Source: an uncultured Lachnospiraceae bacterium
GTDB lineage: Bacteria; Bacillota; Clostridia; Lachnospirales; Lachnospiraceae
Reading direction: 5' to 3'
Assembly: GCA_902770965.1 (NCBI GenBank)
Contig: CACXUY010000011.1
Span: 1 to 64,000, forward strand
DNA: 64,000 nt
Positions 16,716 through 24,190 of this stretch are shown here, one piece after another (positions within the stretch are counted from its first letter, which is position 1; each line of letters opens with the position of its first letter). The position numbers were made by a program, and so were the translations under genes. The notes under the pieces are model-generated. The model was given only the letters and a program-made list of their open reading frames with translations, ran no database searches and was not told the origin of the DNA.

Positions 16716-18233
16716 TTACGATAATGACTTCCATTGATTAATGCTCTGCCCCAGATATACGAGGTCTCCTTCAGGCAGGCAGGCTTCAAGTTCAGCCTTT
16801 GCCTTAGCCGCGGATTCCTGATCCTTGAAGATGCCGTAGACACAGGAGCCGGACCCTGTCATAAGGGCGGCTTTAGCTCCTGCTTTTATCAGGAGTTCCT
16901 TCCTTAATGCCAGTCCGTCCTTATCAGGGACAGCAAGCTCAAATACGTTGAAGGCTGCCTCACAGACCGCATCAAGGTCGCCTTTCTCAAGACCTGCTGC
17001 CGCCATATCCGTGAGGTCGTCTATCTTTATGCTTCCTGAACCCAAGTGGGAAGCCGCGTTGCCGTCTGCCTTTTCCTCGTGAGGGGCTGTGTTGCCGTCT
17101 GTCTTTTCCTCGTGAGGGGCCGCGTTGCCGTCTGCCTTTTCCTCGTGAGGGGCTGTGTTGCCGTCTGTCTCACCATTTCTGTCAAATCCCAGCACCAGAT
17201 CCAGCTCCTTGTACATCTTTCCGGTCGGATATGCCGCCATCGGCTTAACAAATACCATGTGGAAGATGAGTCCCGTCTTCACCGGGGCGAGCCGCTCTCC
17301 TATGCCCTCACCGACAGACGCGCCCTTCAGTATGAGCGCCGGAACGTCCGCTCCCAGCTCTGCTCCCATCGCCATCAGTTCATCGTCGGGGAGGCGGAGC
17401 CCATATAGCTCGTTCAGCGCCTCGAGCATGGCCGCCGCGTCGCCGCTCCCGCCGCCTAAACCGGCGCCTGACGGCACATTTTTCTTAAGCATCACACGGC
17501 AGCCTTCGATCTTAGGGAAACGCTCTTTCATCAGCCGGTATGCTCTGCACACTATGTTGTCGTCTCCCTCAAGTCCCGGCTCAGAGCACTCCAGGCTTAT
17601 ACCGGCTTCATCAGCCTTCCTGACAGTGAGCTCGTCCGACAGGCTGACCGGCTGGAACAGGGTGCGGATGTCATGATATCCGTCCGGGCGTAAACCCACT
17701 ACATCAAGAGTCAGGTTCACCTTAGAAAGTGTCTGCTTTACGACCTTCTCTGTTTTTTTTACCGTCAGCACACAGAAAACACTCACGCCTTCCCCGCGCC
17801 CGAAGGCTGTCAGTCCTTCTCCTGTTGTAGCGGTGATTCCGACACAGTCTTCCCCTATTCCAAGGAGCTTCGCTATAGAGCTTCTCATCTCATCTGCTTT
17901 CGGGGAAATCTTCGGGCGCTTTCCTTCTATCGTTACGGAGAGATGAACCGCCTCAAATCCGGCTTTCGCCAGGTCCTTCATGGCGACTTCCAGATATTCG
18001 CGGGAATCTGTTATGCCCGCGCGGCACATGGCATCCGCCCTCGCGCCGAGTATGTTGCGGCAGGTGATACCTGAGACCGCGTTTGTGACCGCGTGAAGAA
18101 CGACATCCCCGTCGCTGTTAGCAAGAAAAGGAGGGGCATCCTCAAATACTGCCCCTCCTAAGATGCAGCTGCCTGCTGTACCGTCAGCCGCGAACCTATG
18201 GCTGTCCTGTCCTATCGACACCCGAATATCCAT
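16716..18233 (-). CDS. ispFE: Bifunctional IspF-IspE fusion (MECDP synthase / CDP-ME kinase)
   Basis: 505 residues from the ATG at 18233 (a GTG at 18236 is the alternative; GGAGGGG precedes both). Residues about 1-158 are IspF: RVSIGQDSHRF with the metal-binding Asp and His, DGDVVLHAVTNAVSG with the third ligand His, and ATTGEGLTAFGRGEG at the C-terminus. Residues about 165-505 are IspE, a GHMP kinase: LSKVNLTLDVVGLRPDGYHD, the ATP loop PSGAGLGGGSGDAAA near 254, and MTGSGSCVYGIF near the end. IspE phosphorylates CDP-ME and IspF cyclises the product, so the fusion joins consecutive steps. Residues about 355-396 in IspE are four tandem copies of an 11-residue unit (TDGNTAPHEEK type) absent from normal IspE. 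IspD-IspF fusions are well known; this domain pair is not one I recall as common. The start overlaps the stop of the TPR-like gene. Confidence 0.9.
   Translation of the reverse strand: MDIRVSIGQDSHRFAADGTAGSCILGGAVFEDAPPFLANSDGDVVLHAVTNAVSGITCRNILGARADAMCRAGITDSREYLEVAMKDLAKAGFEAVHLSVTIEGKRPKISPKADEMRSSIAKLLGIGEDCVGITATTGEGLTAFGRGEGVSVFCVLTVKKTEKVVKQTLSKVNLTLDVVGLRPDGYHDIRTLFQPVSLSDELTVRKADEAGISLECSEPGLEGDDNIVCRAYRLMKERFPKIEGCRVMLKKNVPSGAGLGGGSGDAAAMLEALNELYGLRLPDDELMAMGAELGADVPALILKGASVGEGIGERLAPVKTGLIFHMVFVKPMAAYPTGKMYKELDLVLGFDRNGETDGNTAPHEEKADGNAAPHEEKTDGNTAPHEEKADGNAASHLGSGSIKIDDLTDMAAAGLEKGDLDAVCEAAFNVFELAVPDKDGLALRKELLIKAGAKAALMTGSGSCVYGIFKDQESAAKAKAELEACLPEGDLVYLGQSINQWKSLS
17046..17170. 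repeat. In-frame 33-bp tandem repeat inside the IspE part of ispFE
   Basis: Nearly four copies of a 33-bp unit encoding TDGNTAPHEEK / ADGNAAPHEEK in alternation. The copies are almost identical at DNA level, so the expansion is recent. Confidence 0.92.
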
Positions 18234-19048
18234 CACAGTCCCCTCCGGTACTCTTTCTTCCAGCCAAGAACCAGCTCCTTCATGCCTGAAGAGCGGCGAT
18301 GCTTGTCCTTGTCCTTGAGGCTGGCAGCTTCAAGCGCGCTTCCCTCGTAACCAATCTGTGACAGAATGCTGTCATACTCGCTCTTCCATTTCTGAAGAGT
18401 GAGCTCAGGAACCCTGTTCATGAGCTCCTCCGGAGGCTTTACACTCTCGTCCAGCCTTCCTACCATGTATATTTTCTTCAGAACCTCATCGCTGCCGAGC
18501 AGCTGGTATGCCTCAATATAGCTTTGCATCGCCTGCTCGAATGAGAAAAGTCCGCAGAGCGAGGAGCCTCTGTTGAACCAAAGACGGCCGGAAAGCTCCC
18601 TGTCCTTCGCCTCCACTCCCATCTCAGGCAGCAGCCTGTCATAGAGCAGGACTGCCTCATAGTAACGGTGCTTGGAGAAAAGATTGTCTGCTTTCTGCCT
18701 CAGCCGCTCCTGCGCGGACGCATTTGCCACATGCGCGACCCGTTCCTGAAAGCCCGAAAGCTCATCACTGCGGTAATAATGGAGATCCTGTAGGATAACC
18801 AGCAGAAGCTCCCCTTGGCTTGAGTTCTTCGACCAGCGCCTGAGCTTTGAGGCGAGCACCGGCCGACCGAGTTCATCGGAAATGAAGCGGAAAAGCTTCT
18901 CATTGACGAAGTCCTCGCCCATGATCAGCTCAAGATTATTGAATATATAGAAGCTAAGCTCCTCCGCGGTATAAATATTGATGTCAAGCTCCTCAATATA
19001 CAGCGGATTCGATGCCGGAAGCTCACGGCATAAGATCAATTGTCCCAT
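18233..19048 (-). CDS. TPR-like protein of unknown function
   Basis: 271 residues. I do not recognise a named family. The N-terminal 90 residues (ELDINIYTAEELSFYIFNNL, then a GEDFVNEKLFRFI block) are helical and acidic. Residues about 110-190 look like two TPR units: RLRQKADNLFSKHRYYEAVL followed by LYDRLLPEM, and RLWFNRGSSLCGLFSFEQAM followed by QSYIEAYQLLGSDE. The C-terminus is charged. No signal peptide or membrane segment is present, so it should act in the cytoplasm. It lies four bases after the Hsp70-like gene and its stop overlaps the ispF-ispE start (TGATG), so all three should be translated in step. TPR proteins often hold client or chaperone partners, which fits the Hsp70-like neighbour; that is an inference. 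Confidence 0.85.
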   Translation of the reverse strand: MGQLILCRELPASNPLYIEELDINIYTAEELSFYIFNNLELIMGEDFVNEKLFRFISDELGRPVLASKLRRWSKNSSQGELLLVILQDLHYYRSDELSGFQERVAHVANASAQERLRQKADNLFSKHRYYEAVLLYDRLLPEMGVEAKDRELSGRLWFNRGSSLCGLFSFEQAMQSYIEAYQLLGSDEVLKKIYMVGRLDESVKPPEELMNRVPELTLQKWKSEYDSILSQIGYEGSALEAASLKDKDKHRRSSGMKELVLGWKKEYRRGL

Positions 19049-19052
19049 AGCT

Positions 19053-20315
19053 TTACCCCATCAGATAAAAATCGCGGCGTATGACAGTGTTCGAGGCGGG
19101 GAAAAGATCCCCGAAGCCCTTATCTATCACTCGTACCGTAAAGTCCTTCTCGGATGAGAAGACCAGGCTAAGTCCGATCCTCGTTGTCCTGTTCGGACGC
19201 GCCGGCAGCTGCCCCAGAGGTATCGTAAATTTCTGAGGCAAGGGAGAACCCACAGACGAGGCTGACAGGACTATCTCATCCATATCATCCACTATGAGGT
19301 CAACATTCGAACGGGCTTCGTACCAGTTAGTGCCCGCCAGTGCCAGCACTACCTGCTCCGTCCTTCCGTCAAGCAGGGCGTTCAAGGTGACAGTACAGGC
19401 GATCCTCCCCTCGCAGATACATATGAAGGGATAAGACGGCCTGTTCTTTGAGATATCAAAGGCCGCGTATGCCGCTCCTCCTGAGAAGAGCTGCTGTCCT
19501 GTGTAGCATCTTCTCTTGGCGCAGACTACTCTCTTGAAGGATTCTGCCCAGTCCCAGGTCAGGAAGCCTTTGCCGGTAAGGAAGACAGATGAGATGACCT
19601 TCTTCCCAAAAAGCTTACCGGCACAGGTGGTCATGATGCTGTCGGCGAGCCTCTTTCCCTGAGGCGTATCCATGACATCGAGGCTGAAGCTCTCCTCAAG
19701 CGGCTGCCTGACCGCCTCCGCGATATGGGGCTTGCGCCCACGGATGACCCTCATCTCATAATAAGTGAGTCCTTCATCCGTCAGGTCGAAAAGCGACGCC
19801 GTGTTCGCCCATATCTCCGGCTGCTGCCTGACCACATAGCTGACGAAGCTCTCGCAGTGGCTCTGAATATGGACCCTGTCCCGCGGAATTCCCAGTTCTT
19901 CAGACACATCAACGAGATAATCCATGAAGGCGGCGTTCATCTCTGCCACCGTGAACATGAGGCAGCGGATCTCATCTGAACCGAATCTTGCTTTGGCAAG
20001 GCTCAGTAGTGAGCTGATATATATCTTCAGGAGCTCACCGGCTTCGTATCTTACGCCTTCGATGGTAGCGAAACCATTCTTCGCGGAAAGCTTCAGCAGC
20101 TGATCCACCATCGTGCCGCCGCCAAAAAGCGCCAGCCGGTAGGCTTCCTCTCCTATATACCAGGAATCCTCCCCCTTCTTCTTACATATCACAGTCGGAA
20201 TGAGGCCGTGAGAATCATTGTCCGTTCCCACAGAATCAATAACCATATTCTCTCTGCAGCAGCTGACCTCGCTGTAATTGTTTCGAAGGTCAATGCCAAG
20301 TACCAGTCCGTCCAA
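19053..20315 (-). CDS. Divergent Hsp70/actin-fold (ASKHA) protein, DUF5716-like
   Basis: 420 residues from a TTG at 20315 that follows GGGAGGTG by six bases; an ATG at 20366 would add 17 residues but lies in tandem-repeat DNA (20339-20483) and has no RBS. GLVLGIDLRNNYSEVSCC is the phosphate-1 loop of the fold, with RNN in place of the usual Gly-Thr-Thr. FTVAEMNAAFMDYLVDVSEE and HIQSHCESFVSYVV match the Hsp70 blocks TVP...R...A and the E.AAA helix. VFLTGKGF is the adenosine loop (VxLxGG type). Residues after about 320 are beta-rich, like an Hsp70 substrate-binding domain. It resembles the family I remember as DUF5716. It sits between the giant protein and the TPR-like protein. Whether it hydrolyses ATP is open, because the first phosphate loop is changed. 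Confidence 0.8.
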   Translation of the reverse strand: MDGLVLGIDLRNNYSEVSCCRENMVIDSVGTDNDSHGLIPTVICKKKGEDSWYIGEEAYRLALFGGGTMVDQLLKLSAKNGFATIEGVRYEAGELLKIYISSLLSLAKARFGSDEIRCLMFTVAEMNAAFMDYLVDVSEELGIPRDRVHIQSHCESFVSYVVRQQPEIWANTASLFDLTDEGLTYYEMRVIRGRKPHIAEAVRQPLEESFSLDVMDTPQGKRLADSIMTTCAGKLFGKKVISSVFLTGKGFLTWDWAESFKRVVCAKRRCYTGQQLFSGGAAYAAFDISKNRPSYPFICICEGRIACTVTLNALLDGRTEQVVLALAGTNWYEARSNVDLIVDDMDEIVLSASSVGSPLPQKFTIPLGQLPARPNRTTRIGLSLVFSSEKDFTVRVIDKGFGDLFPASNTVIRRDFYLMG

Positions 20316-20338
20316 TATCCTCACCTCCCGCAGCGATT

Positions 20339-20483
20339 CGCCGCTCTTGCCATCTGCATCTGACATCCCGCGGACACAGTGCCGCTTTTGCTATCTGTAT
20401 CTGACATTCTGCGGACACAGCGCCACTCCTGTCATCTGCGTCTGACATTCCGCGGACACAGCGCCGCGCCTGTCTTATCACCA
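20339..20483. repeat. 41-bp minisatellite between the giant gene and the Hsp70-like gene
   Basis: Three full copies (from 20362, 20403 and 20444) and a partial copy of a 41-bp unit that begins GACATTCCGCGGACACAGCG. On the minus strand each unit carries an ATG followed by TCAGA, which is why start codons appear here in more than one frame. Confidence 0.9.
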
Positions 20484-20530
20484 GTCTGTCACAGCCTGTT
20501 AAGAAACACTGCGCTGCGACACGCTCTCTA

Positions 20531-23500
20531 TCACATAAGGTCAAACAGCTTCTTCACCAGCGTATCCATGCGGGCGAACTCCACGACCTCCTCCTGCCAT
20601 TCCTCTGATTCGGAGAAATCGACGCGTCCGAGAAGATGTCTGAACCTATGATACCTGTTGTCGGAGCGTATGTCATCGCTCACAACCTTTATCATTCCTT
20701 CGCCCTGCAGCTGAACTACTAAACGCGCCTTTCCATCCTCCCTGCGGGCGCTCCCCTTAAATACTGTCAGCGGAGTGCCTTCGCGGTTGAGGATTATCTC
20801 AAATTCCATGACCTCATCGTCAAAGAGCTGGACAGGCCTCATGAATATGCCCTCATAGCTCCTTATCATCGGAACCAAAGCCACAGGCTTTTTCGAGACG
20901 TCGCTTCCGTCTGCTTCCTTCGGTACGAAGCGGAAGCGCAGCTCAGGCTCGTCCTCAGCCTGTCCCCTGTACTCAACGATCGTCTTATCGATCATCTCAT
21001 CGGGCACAGACACCATCCGTCCCAGGGGCTGGAAGAAGGAGAAAAGCCTGCCGTTCCTGCAGCAATCCTGCAGCAGCTTTTCCGCAAGCTTTACATCCTG
21101 TTCCGACATCTCGTCCATCTCAGAATAATTCCTCAGCACGGCATACCTCAGTATCTCCGGGATCTCGGTGAAGGAATTGCCGGCGCGGACGCTCTCGCGG
21201 ATGTAGCTCATGACTTCTTCGTCAATAGGTATGTCCTTAAAGATATAGTCGGCACATTTCATGACAAAATAAGCCCTGACGACCAGCTCATTCGCCGGCC
21301 CGTCCTCGACATAGCATCTGAAGACGAAGCCTATCTCGTCAATATCTCCGGTAAATATTTTCTGGCTTAAGAGACGGCCCGCTATGTCGTATCTGTTGAC
21401 TCGCGCCTCATGGCTGCTTCTCAGTATGGCGAGCATCTCGCAGCTAAGGCCGTTGTAATACCGGCACAGCCACGAAAGGATCGCGTCATCGGCATATCCC
21501 TCTGCGAAGAGCCTGTAGGCGACCTCAGTGAGGAACTTATCCTCCTTGCCAGGTTCGGCGGCTTCCCTGCCTCTCGCCCAGCTTGACACAAGAGTCCGAA
21601 GCCTCTCTCTGTCGATGCCGTTGAAACCATACTGGCGAACAAGTCCCGCCGCCTCTGACATGTATCTCTTCCCGATGAGAGTCTCCGTCAGGTATATCCT
21701 GTCAGCCGTCCTCATGCTCCTGGACCTGACACAGGCAAGAAGCTGTTCTTCTCCTTCGCCGTCCGAAGCCGAGAATATCTCTATCAGGGTTCTCACTATG
21801 CGGCTCTGGTATACAGGCCTCAGACCCTCGACTCCAAGCTGAGCCTCTAGCGTGCGGAGGGCTTTATCGTTATATTTTCCGGAACGCATGAAGCTTTCAC
21901 AGGCGGAAAGCCTCAGCATCGGCATGTCGGGGTAATACTCGTAACAGAGGTTCAGAAGCGGAGCGGCCTCCTCCGGGGTAAAGAACGGGGTCAGCCTGCA
22001 GGCAAGGCCGGTATAGCGGTTATTCATGCTGTCGACCATAAAGACCTTGTAGCTGTCAGTATACAGCGGTATGACCGTGCTGCCGTTCTTGAGAGGATAC
22101 AGCTTCTCCCCCATGAGCTCGCCGCAGCAGACAGTGGCCGAACGGTACGGTCCTTTTGCCGTGACGAGGCAGCTCTTAAGTATATCCGGCAGGACTCTCG
22201 CGATCCTGCGATCCACCACCTCCGGCCTGAGGATCCTCTTGTACATCTCGGCAAGCTCGACGTTCACCCGGCCTTTGAAAAGCTGTTCGAGAGCATACGA
22301 CTGTATCTGTACCTGATAAGCCCTAAACATCTTCGAATTCTCGGGATATTCCTTCAGGACATGGCAGTACAGCCTCTCTCTCGAATGTGAATCCGCGTGG
22401 CTGTTATATGAGAAATACAAAAGAAGTTCTGACGGCAGACTGCCTGTAAAACCATCTGGCAGGCTGTAAAGATAATAATCGTACAGCCATGTGAGCTGAA
22501 TGTCCTGTTTGACTCCCAGCTCAAACCAGCGGAAAAATTCCGGTGAGCGAACGTTGCTGCGTATGAGCATCTCGCAGATAGCAGACAGGATCTTTTTATC
22601 GTGCCATTTCTCATAGAACGCGCTGAGCGCGCGATAGAGCATGCGGCGGAATGTGGTCTCCTCACCGGCAAGGCCTGCTGCCTGAAGCACCACTTCTTTA
22701 TCTATACAGCCGTGGCGGGCTCCGAACCAGAGAACCTGCAGCTCATAATCCCCGAGTCTGTGCAAAATATTTGGATAACGATTATATATGAGGCAGCCCT
22801 CCAGATAGATGAATGGGCTGCGAAGTCCCTGTCTGTAGTACTCGCGGAGCCTGTTCAGGGAATCCTTCGGCTTGTCATTTTCAAGATCTGCCGACCTCAT
22901 CCTGAGCATGGCTATGGTAGGGCTGAAATAACCTTTGTCAGAGTAACTGTCGAGTATGCGTATGAACCTGTTTCTGGCTTCGGCGCTGCCATCCAGGCAC
23001 ATCTGAAGATACATATAAAAACAATAGGCGTCCGGGTCGCGCTTCGCCACCCGCGTCATCTCGGAGTGCATCGCTGCGGCTGCTTTCTCAGCCCTCGGCT
23101 TGTTGCCGCTAAGAAGCAGTATCTCGATCTGCCACAGGCGCTGATATACGTCAGGGATGGCAAGCTCTGACATCTTCACCCAGGCTTCCTTCATGTCCTG
23201 AAGCCTTGCTTCTCTTCCGGCTTTTATATATGAGAGTTCAAGGTATGCCCGCATCATGCGCACATAGTTGCGGTCATACTCGGCATGCATCTCACGTTTC
23301 TTGCGCTTGTCCTCTGTCTCGCTGACCTCTACCATGACAGGAAGGCTCTGGTTATATCTCAAGCCCTCCAGCTTGATGAACCCCATATTCCGTCCGGCGT
23401 GAAGCTTCTCAGGCGCTATACGGTATTCAAATGAAGCAACGCTCCCGTTGGCTTTGAAATCATCATCGGTCAGCGTGTTCTTGGGAAGATCAATAAAAGA

Positions 23501-24190
23501 CGAATCAGCAGATATCTTAACAGCGGTGTGTCCCCAGCCCTCGCGCCTTACTGTAACCTCTCCGAAAAGCTCCTTTCCGTCACATACGAAGCTTTTCTCT
23601 CTGACATCGGCAAAATATTTCTGCTCTGGTTTCGCTTTTGTCGCAAGCAGGAACTCCTCCATGGCTTTTGCCTGATCCAGGCTGCGATGAAGTCCGTCAT
23701 AAAGAGCCTGAATGCCAAGCTCCTGCATAAAATCAAGCTTTATGAATTCATTTGACGCAAACAGCTTCACGGCAGCGCCCACGTCAGTCCTGGCGTACTC
23801 CGCGAAATCCTCCAGCTTAGTGAGCGCCCCGTATTTTTTGCCTCCGGGCTCGCCCGCCACAAAGTGATAAGGAATCTTGAATTCTCCGCCGTTGGTGACA
23901 AGCGAAAAAAAGCCTTCGATGTCCTCGCCGGATTCGAGGGCTTTGCCCTTGACCTCATATGCAAGTATCGCTCCTTCGCCGGCAAAATATTGCTGTTTGA
24001 GCCTGATATTACTGCTCCCGGAATAAATAAGCCCGCGAATAGAGACCCTGTTGGTGCTTCTTACCTGGATCTCGCCTTGATAAGACGCTCCATAAGGGAT
24101 CACTGCCTCAATGCTCGGTTGTAAGATCTCTACCTGGGGCTTCTTGTCATCGACCTTACCCCTGGCAAGACGTGTTATGCGTTCCTTCAA
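20531..24190 (-). CDS. Giant protein of unknown function, DUF5717-like
   Basis: 1219 residues from a TTG at 24190, six bases after AGGTGG. The frame stays open to an ATG at 24304, but those 38 codons are a copy of repeat family B and have no RBS. Residues about 20-330 hold two beta-sandwich-like domains (for example YQGEIQVRSTNRVSIRGLIY and ELFGEVTVRREGWGHTAVKI). Residues about 335-1050 are almost all helical, in repeats that look like TPR or HEAT solenoids (WQIEILLLSGNKPRAEKAAA). The last 150 residues are beta-rich again (EIILNREGTPLTVF). No signal peptide or membrane segment is present. It resembles the Lachnospiraceae family I remember as DUF5717. It is followed on the same strand by the Hsp70-like and TPR-like genes and probably works with them. 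Function unknown. Confidence 0.82.
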   Translation of the reverse strand: MKERITRLARGKVDDKKPQVEILQPSIEAVIPYGASYQGEIQVRSTNRVSIRGLIYSGSSNIRLKQQYFAGEGAILAYEVKGKALESGEDIEGFFSLVTNGGEFKIPYHFVAGEPGGKKYGALTKLEDFAEYARTDVGAAVKLFASNEFIKLDFMQELGIQALYDGLHRSLDQAKAMEEFLLATKAKPEQKYFADVREKSFVCDGKELFGEVTVRREGWGHTAVKISADSSFIDLPKNTLTDDDFKANGSVASFEYRIAPEKLHAGRNMGFIKLEGLRYNQSLPVMVEVSETEDKRKKREMHAEYDRNYVRMMRAYLELSYIKAGREARLQDMKEAWVKMSELAIPDVYQRLWQIEILLLSGNKPRAEKAAAAMHSEMTRVAKRDPDAYCFYMYLQMCLDGSAEARNRFIRILDSYSDKGYFSPTIAMLRMRSADLENDKPKDSLNRLREYYRQGLRSPFIYLEGCLIYNRYPNILHRLGDYELQVLWFGARHGCIDKEVVLQAAGLAGEETTFRRMLYRALSAFYEKWHDKKILSAICEMLIRSNVRSPEFFRWFELGVKQDIQLTWLYDYYLYSLPDGFTGSLPSELLLYFSYNSHADSHSRERLYCHVLKEYPENSKMFRAYQVQIQSYALEQLFKGRVNVELAEMYKRILRPEVVDRRIARVLPDILKSCLVTAKGPYRSATVCCGELMGEKLYPLKNGSTVIPLYTDSYKVFMVDSMNNRYTGLACRLTPFFTPEEAAPLLNLCYEYYPDMPMLRLSACESFMRSGKYNDKALRTLEAQLGVEGLRPVYQSRIVRTLIEIFSASDGEGEEQLLACVRSRSMRTADRIYLTETLIGKRYMSEAAGLVRQYGFNGIDRERLRTLVSSWARGREAAEPGKEDKFLTEVAYRLFAEGYADDAILSWLCRYYNGLSCEMLAILRSSHEARVNRYDIAGRLLSQKIFTGDIDEIGFVFRCYVEDGPANELVVRAYFVMKCADYIFKDIPIDEEVMSYIRESVRAGNSFTEIPEILRYAVLRNYSEMDEMSEQDVKLAEKLLQDCCRNGRLFSFFQPLGRMVSVPDEMIDKTIVEYRGQAEDEPELRFRFVPKEADGSDVSKKPVALVPMIRSYEGIFMRPVQLFDDEVMEFEIILNREGTPLTVFKGSARREDGKARLVVQLQGEGMIKVVSDDIRSDNRYHRFRHLLGRVDFSESEEWQEEVVEFARMDTLVKKLFDLM

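Follow-up and report, generated by a model that had tools for sequence, protein, structure and literature searches.

The DUF5717-DUF5716 gene cluster of the window (the whole 64,000 nucleotide stretch of DNA that was analysed) encodes a giant solenoid protein (S), a pseudo-Hsp70 (B) and a shortened TPR adaptor (T), and is, in our reading, probably the surviving core of a seven-gene operon, S-A-E-B-C-D-T, which would now serve as a nucleotide-independent pseudo-Hsp70 adaptor or scaffold complex. As far as we could find, there is no earlier description of the seven-gene operon, whose products include four Hsp70 paralogs, one of them dead, and a GrpE-like protein. Lying outside the window, it escaped the original prediction.

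The S gene is located on the minus strand at 24190-20531 and encodes a 1219 amino acid protein from a TTG start, which matches the family consensus start MKxxIxxLxxGxF. It is followed on the same strand by B (20366-19053), a 437 amino acid protein, and by T (19048-18233) with 271 amino acids. These open reading frames are exactly the three same-strand genes of the original prediction, including the four bases between B and T and the overlap of the stop of T with the GTG start at 18236 of an ispF-ispE reading frame (18236-16716, minus strand). The S-B spacer of 164 bp is unusually long in the window genome because of a 41 bp tandem repeat in 3.1 copies (20339-20467, Tandem Repeats Finder), which covers the spacer and continues into the start of the B coding sequence; the first residues of B are thus repeat-derived.

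In Pfam the window's S (PF18984 and PF18983) matches DUF5717_N with 5e-215 (716.5 bits) and DUF5717 with 9e-56 (189.8 bits), at a gathering score of 25, and B matches DUF5716_C (PF18980) with 1.5e-88 (297 bits against a gathering score of 34.7). Both proteins are full-length members of their families, far over the cut-offs, and the proposed resemblance to DUF5717 and DUF5716 holds. For T only TPR_2 was detected, with 16.3 bits and under the cut-off of 27, and an NCBIfam search returned nothing over the cut-offs. The neighbouring ispF-ispE frame carries YgbB (1.8e-34) and GHMP kinase (1.7e-18) domains in one frame, and a 33 bp tandem repeat (17058-17167) within its IspE part codes for HEEKADGNAAP-like repeats. 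We rejected it as a functional partner of the three genes, since other genes are found at that place in relatives.

B belongs to the Hsp70 superfamily by fold and ancestry. Its AF2 model (mean pLDDT 78.7, from a shallow alignment of 29 rows) has a degenerate NBD without the IIB region, followed by a C-terminal beta domain; the helical lid (SBD-alpha) is absent from the model, the C-terminus being made of beta strands without helices. In Foldseek the best match is DnaK (4ani, 1.1e-16), with a TM score of about 0.5 to solved Hsp70s as would be expected if the domain orientation differs, and the other top structures include BiP, the Hsp110 Sse1 (2qxl) and Ssz1 in RAC (7x3k, 6sr6). Alignment by hhalign to Hsp70 C of the seven-gene operon gave 99.7% (E 1.4e-26, 411 columns), and the B protein of Defluviitalea matches both PF18980 and PF00012. 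The Hsp70/actin (ASKHA) fold foreseen for the second protein is therefore present by model, structure search and profile alignment alike.

The ATP-site motifs of this fold are destroyed. In the window's B, GIDLRNNYS replaces GIDLGTTNS, FDLTDEGLT replaces DLGGGTFD and LTGKGF replaces GGSS, LLKLSA is found where the VKR motif of the K70 region should stand, and the IIB region is deleted. The changed phosphate loop had been recognised before. The damage extends further, to K70, phosphate 2, the adenosine motif and subdomain IIB, and the B proteins of the window's family that were examined share these losses together with that of the P-loop. The B proteins of seven-gene operons have already lost most of these motifs, which indicates that the catalytic death of B preceded the loss of genes described below. 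Residual features are the glycines of the adenosine region and a KGA motif; judged by its sequence, B may bind nucleotide weakly. The original prediction cast B as a switch and the other two proteins as platforms for clients or partners, a reading that would make B an ATP-driven Hsp70. B does have an Hsp70 fold, an NBD-like beginning and chaperone ancestry, but its ATP-site motifs and IIB region are gone and ATP-driven switching is for this reason improbable, whereas the sister Hsp70s keep their motifs. We consider the switch very unlikely, and it finds no support in the present data.

S was modelled by AF2 over residues 21-1219 (mean pLDDT 82.6, from a shallow alignment of 36 rows), with tandem Ig-like beta domains at the N-terminus, a TPR/HAT-like alpha solenoid with a small internal beta domain, and a C-terminal beta domain. 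The beta domains at both ends and the solenoid of about 700 residues had been correctly anticipated, and the internal beta domain comes in addition. Foldseek matched the N-terminal part to chains of the ciliary central apparatus and the solenoid to TPR-HAT chains of CTR9, SKI and splicing complexes, all at low TM; kinship of S with ciliary or splicing proteins was rejected, as the resemblance is confined to beta domains and TPR/HAT repeats of a generic kind. In several families the first 390 residues of S (SN) are encoded by a gene of their own just upstream; in the window's family they are fused to the remainder.

T carries a conserved N-terminal motif, YSxEELCYY..., and is the ortholog of the T protein of the seven-gene operon, which has about 387 amino acids and, in Defluviitalea, many clear TPR matches; phmmer E-values between the window's T and T proteins of seven-gene loci range from 1e-6 to 1e-10. 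The TPR-like character ascribed to the third protein is thus clear in the longer orthologs and sub-threshold in the window's T itself. In one genome (G025) B and T are naturally fused in an open frame of 713-717 amino acids with no stop (L044:9246-11387, plus strand). This fusion and that of SN with the remainder of S (SC) suggest contact between the joined parts.

The adjacency and order of S, B and T are not due to chance. In each of the 25 family loci (the window and L043-L066) the genes follow one another on one strand and in one order, most of them overlapping or separated by no more than about 30 bases, so that the joint occurrence expected of the three genes is borne out. Separate searches of the same 61 genomes detected S in 47, B in 47 and both in 46 (Fisher 3e-11), and strong matches to T were counted in 46; the two genomes in which S and B disagree are 67% and 80% complete, and one genome without S and B (G029) has no strong T match either. 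Within the window's family, which comprises more than 250 genera, B was detected, as a rule once per genome, in 244 of 250 genera and in 199 of 202 good genomes. A class-wide sample of 341 genomes yielded beyond the family a sole DUF5716 match, under the cut-off; the occurrence of DUF5716 within the order and outside the family is known from the searches of the 61 genomes and of the seven-gene loci. In three genomes named Lachnospiraceae there is one DUF5716 gene each (E 5e-88 to 6e-95), as in the window's family, and Defluviitalea and Petrocella, which belong to other families of Lachnospirales, show a weaker, multi-copy DUF5716 pattern. This pattern and the size of the window's family point to Lachnospiraceae. 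The dN/dS ratio in the closest congeneric species pair is about 0.02-0.03 for S, B and T, from which we conclude that all three genes are functional. The idea of a conserved three-gene unit of chaperone origin is supported.

Related loci in other families were recovered by a genome scan with an alignment of Hsp70 A against 84,980 species, which returned 79 loci. Hsp70 A was chosen because the alignments of S and B are too divergent for search patterns; a search with the window's S alone as query returned no related locus. The close loci (at least 59% identity) belong to Defluviitaleaceae, to Vallitaleaceae including Petrocella, and to MAGs labelled Epulonipiscium, Eubacteriaceae, Clostridiales or similar. 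All 21 complete loci have the order S-A-E-B-C-D-T on one strand, that is S, Hsp70 A, the GrpE-like E, the pseudo-Hsp70 B, Hsp70 C, the Hsp70-VWA protein D and the TPR protein T. In Defluviitalea phaphyphila the Pfam Hsp70 matches are 6e-78 for A, 2e-63 for C and 8e-92 for D, the latter with an additional VWA match (7e-10), B matches both DUF5716 (2e-33) and HSP70 (2e-14), and S matches DUF5717 (8e-41). E is a GrpE with a long helical extension, with Pfam values of 7e-11 in D. phaphyphila and 9e-13 and 5e-12 in two further genomes; E proteins score 48.7, 42.5 and 46.1 bits against a GrpE gathering score of 25.8. A, C and D retain GxDxGTTNS, K70, DxGGGT(F/L)D and GGSS, and C ends in a DUF5716-like C-terminus.

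A different multi-Hsp70 island was observed in scattered phyla (L126 of Peribacillus kribbensis, L129, L132, L133, L134 and partly L128 and L130), with the layout Hsp70, about 250 amino acids, Hsp70, 260-580 amino acids, Hsp70, about 470 amino acids, Hsp70, the last Hsp70 being an Hsp70-VWA protein in Peribacillus. It looks mobile or conflict-related, with dynamin-like GTPases or an SNF2 helicase near some of the islands, and may be distantly related to the seven-gene operon. In an attempted one-to-one mapping of A, C and D onto these islands only C grouped with one of the four Hsp70s, in a tree with badly translated rows. A further group of proteins (A2, e.g. L061:6786-7958, minus strand) consists of coiled-coil proteins of about 390 amino acids with a two-helix membrane hairpin, without any Pfam match over the cut-off. 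A2 genes lie beside T in many genomes of the window's family and elsewhere in other families. They were rejected as a fourth member of the cluster, being present in about half of the same-family genomes, and are optional neighbours, since they also occur in genomes without S-B-T and are missing from the window genome.

The relation between the two gene arrangements could be traced by phylogeny and synteny. With C as the root, all B proteins from the window's family fall into one clade (100/99, bootstrap 100) nested within the B proteins of seven-gene operons, with B of locus L031 as sister, and a clade of their own for the seven-gene B proteins was rejected by the AU test (p = 0.002), in trees which contain long branches. 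A divergent cobD-like gene is found upstream of S in about nine loci of the family and in 16 seven-gene loci, and valS is located downstream in both types; these shared flanks place the trio and the seven-gene operon at the same locus. Hsp70 A was absent from all 250 sampled genera/genomes of the family. In six genomes from other families the same query matched at E-values under 1e-280. Nesting, shared flanks and absence of A together point to the loss of A-E from between S and B and of C-D from between B and T. The family-wide search covered A; for C, D and E the loss is deduced from the 25 family loci and from an Hsp70 search of the window genome. S-B-T is thus, very probably, a remnant of the seven-gene operon.

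In the opposite scenario S-B-T would be the older state, to which other families later added A, E, C and D; this would account for S-B-T being the part common to both states. Against such an addition, B of the family is nested in seven-gene B by a statistically preferred topology, B is a degenerate paralog of C with the same C-terminal domain, and A, C and fragments of the other genes survive at the transitional locus L031; we take later addition to be most unlikely. L031 (genome G039), from the sister lineage, has kept A and C, its E is short (279 amino acids), and D and T are each split into two open reading frames, interruptions which represent either decay in progress or assembly errors. 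In another lineage (G051) S-B is kept and no match to A is found, which implies either repeated loss of A or a more complex course of events.

We propose that the ancestral S-A-E-B-C-D-T operon would have been a dedicated Hsp70 machine formed by A, C and D, the exchange factor E, the dead B, T and the solenoid S, from which the window's family would have shed the half that ran on ATP (A, E, C and D), keeping S, B and T in order. Physical assembly of S, B and T is inferred from the gene fusions and the co-occurrence. As no competent ATPase is left in the trio, we read it as a standing complex with the role of an adaptor or scaffold. B would sit between S and T as a rigid docking module, and the complex would hold or present a client and not fold it by cycles of ATP hydrolysis. 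That the three proteins form one ATP-independent complex appears quite likely. On balance we also favour, somewhat more cautiously, the view that the whole family keeps as a core trait such a nucleotide-independent S-B-T chaperone machine without ATPases, and that its relatives run the full version with four Hsp70s and a GrpE-like protein.

The main competing explanation makes B, together with S and T, a regulator of the housekeeping DnaK, in the manner of the exchange factor Hsp110 or of Ssz1, the non-canonical Hsp70 in the RAC co-chaperone. Both proteins are among the Foldseek matches of B, and Ssz1 is a known atypical partner Hsp70 (PMC8476630, PMC7083937). A canonical DnaK of its own is present in each of three genomes checked, the window genome having one and no other close Hsp70, and the ancestral operon had three ATP-competent partners together with a GrpE-like protein. 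The likeness to Hsp110 and Ssz1 is, however, that of the general Hsp70 fold, with no specific kinship, the loci examined show no linkage to dnaK, and the operon is without a J-domain protein: a check of its genes for the HPD motif revealed none in a J domain, the HPDs of C lying near residue 394 and outside any such domain. Regulation of DnaK is accordingly the less expected role, though a tenable one, and the specific choice of a scaffold or adaptor over a regulator of DnaK we regard as evenly balanced.

For DUF5716 and DUF5717 this provides an origin, a domain anatomy and a hypothesis that can be tested. The full machine of Defluviitalea and Petrocella versus the stripped core of the window's family constitutes a natural experiment on a pseudo-chaperone subunit without motor, and the strong purifying selection on the trio probably reflects a basic cell function. 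No described role had been known to the original prediction, and our literature search, with most subscription journals outside its coverage, found no paper on the function of DUF5716 or DUF5717 or on either operon state; DUF5716 turned up only as a passing mention in work on an unrelated subject. The Pfam entries DUF5716 (PF18980) and DUF5717 (PF18984/PF18983) give no function, operon or Hsp70 origin.

The nearest published arrangement to the seven-gene operon is that of Kaur et al. (2020, PMC7159879), in which a subset of the GAP1-N2 GTPase conflict systems combines HSP70 and GrpE with a second, reduced HSP70 and with partners that carry TPRs. S-B-T could in principle be part of a similar conflict or anti-phage system, given these common parts and the multi-Hsp70 islands which elsewhere lie near dynamin-like GTPases or a helicase. 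Yet the seven-gene operon lacks the GTPase, the FNIII protein and the effector, no GTPase being present among the seven genes or as a recurrent neighbour, and PADLOC gave no specific match, only generic HSP70-like ones in C and D. S-B-T is moreover single-copy, near-universal and syntenic in one family and apparently vertically inherited, whereas the GAP1-N2 systems are scattered. With neither GTPase nor effector in the operon, and with a near-universal reduced form, we do not file it under the GAP1-N2 systems, and a role in conflict is highly improbable.

The bacterial DnaK-GrpE system resembles the seven-gene operon in its combination of Hsp70s with intact motifs and a GrpE-family protein, and DnaK is the closest solved fold to B; the operon differs in having four Hsp70 paralogs, one dead and one fused to VWA, a long GrpE and no J-domain protein. 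Ssz1 of RAC and Hsp110 (PMC8476630, PMC7083937) are comparable to the adaptor proposed here in that a non-canonical Hsp70 acts as a partner and not as an ATP-driven folder. They are, in distinction to B, eukaryotic, and the ATP-site motifs of B are heavily eroded; the partner of Ssz1 is a J-protein, whereas the gene neighbourhood of B gives it the giant solenoid S and the TPR protein T as partners.
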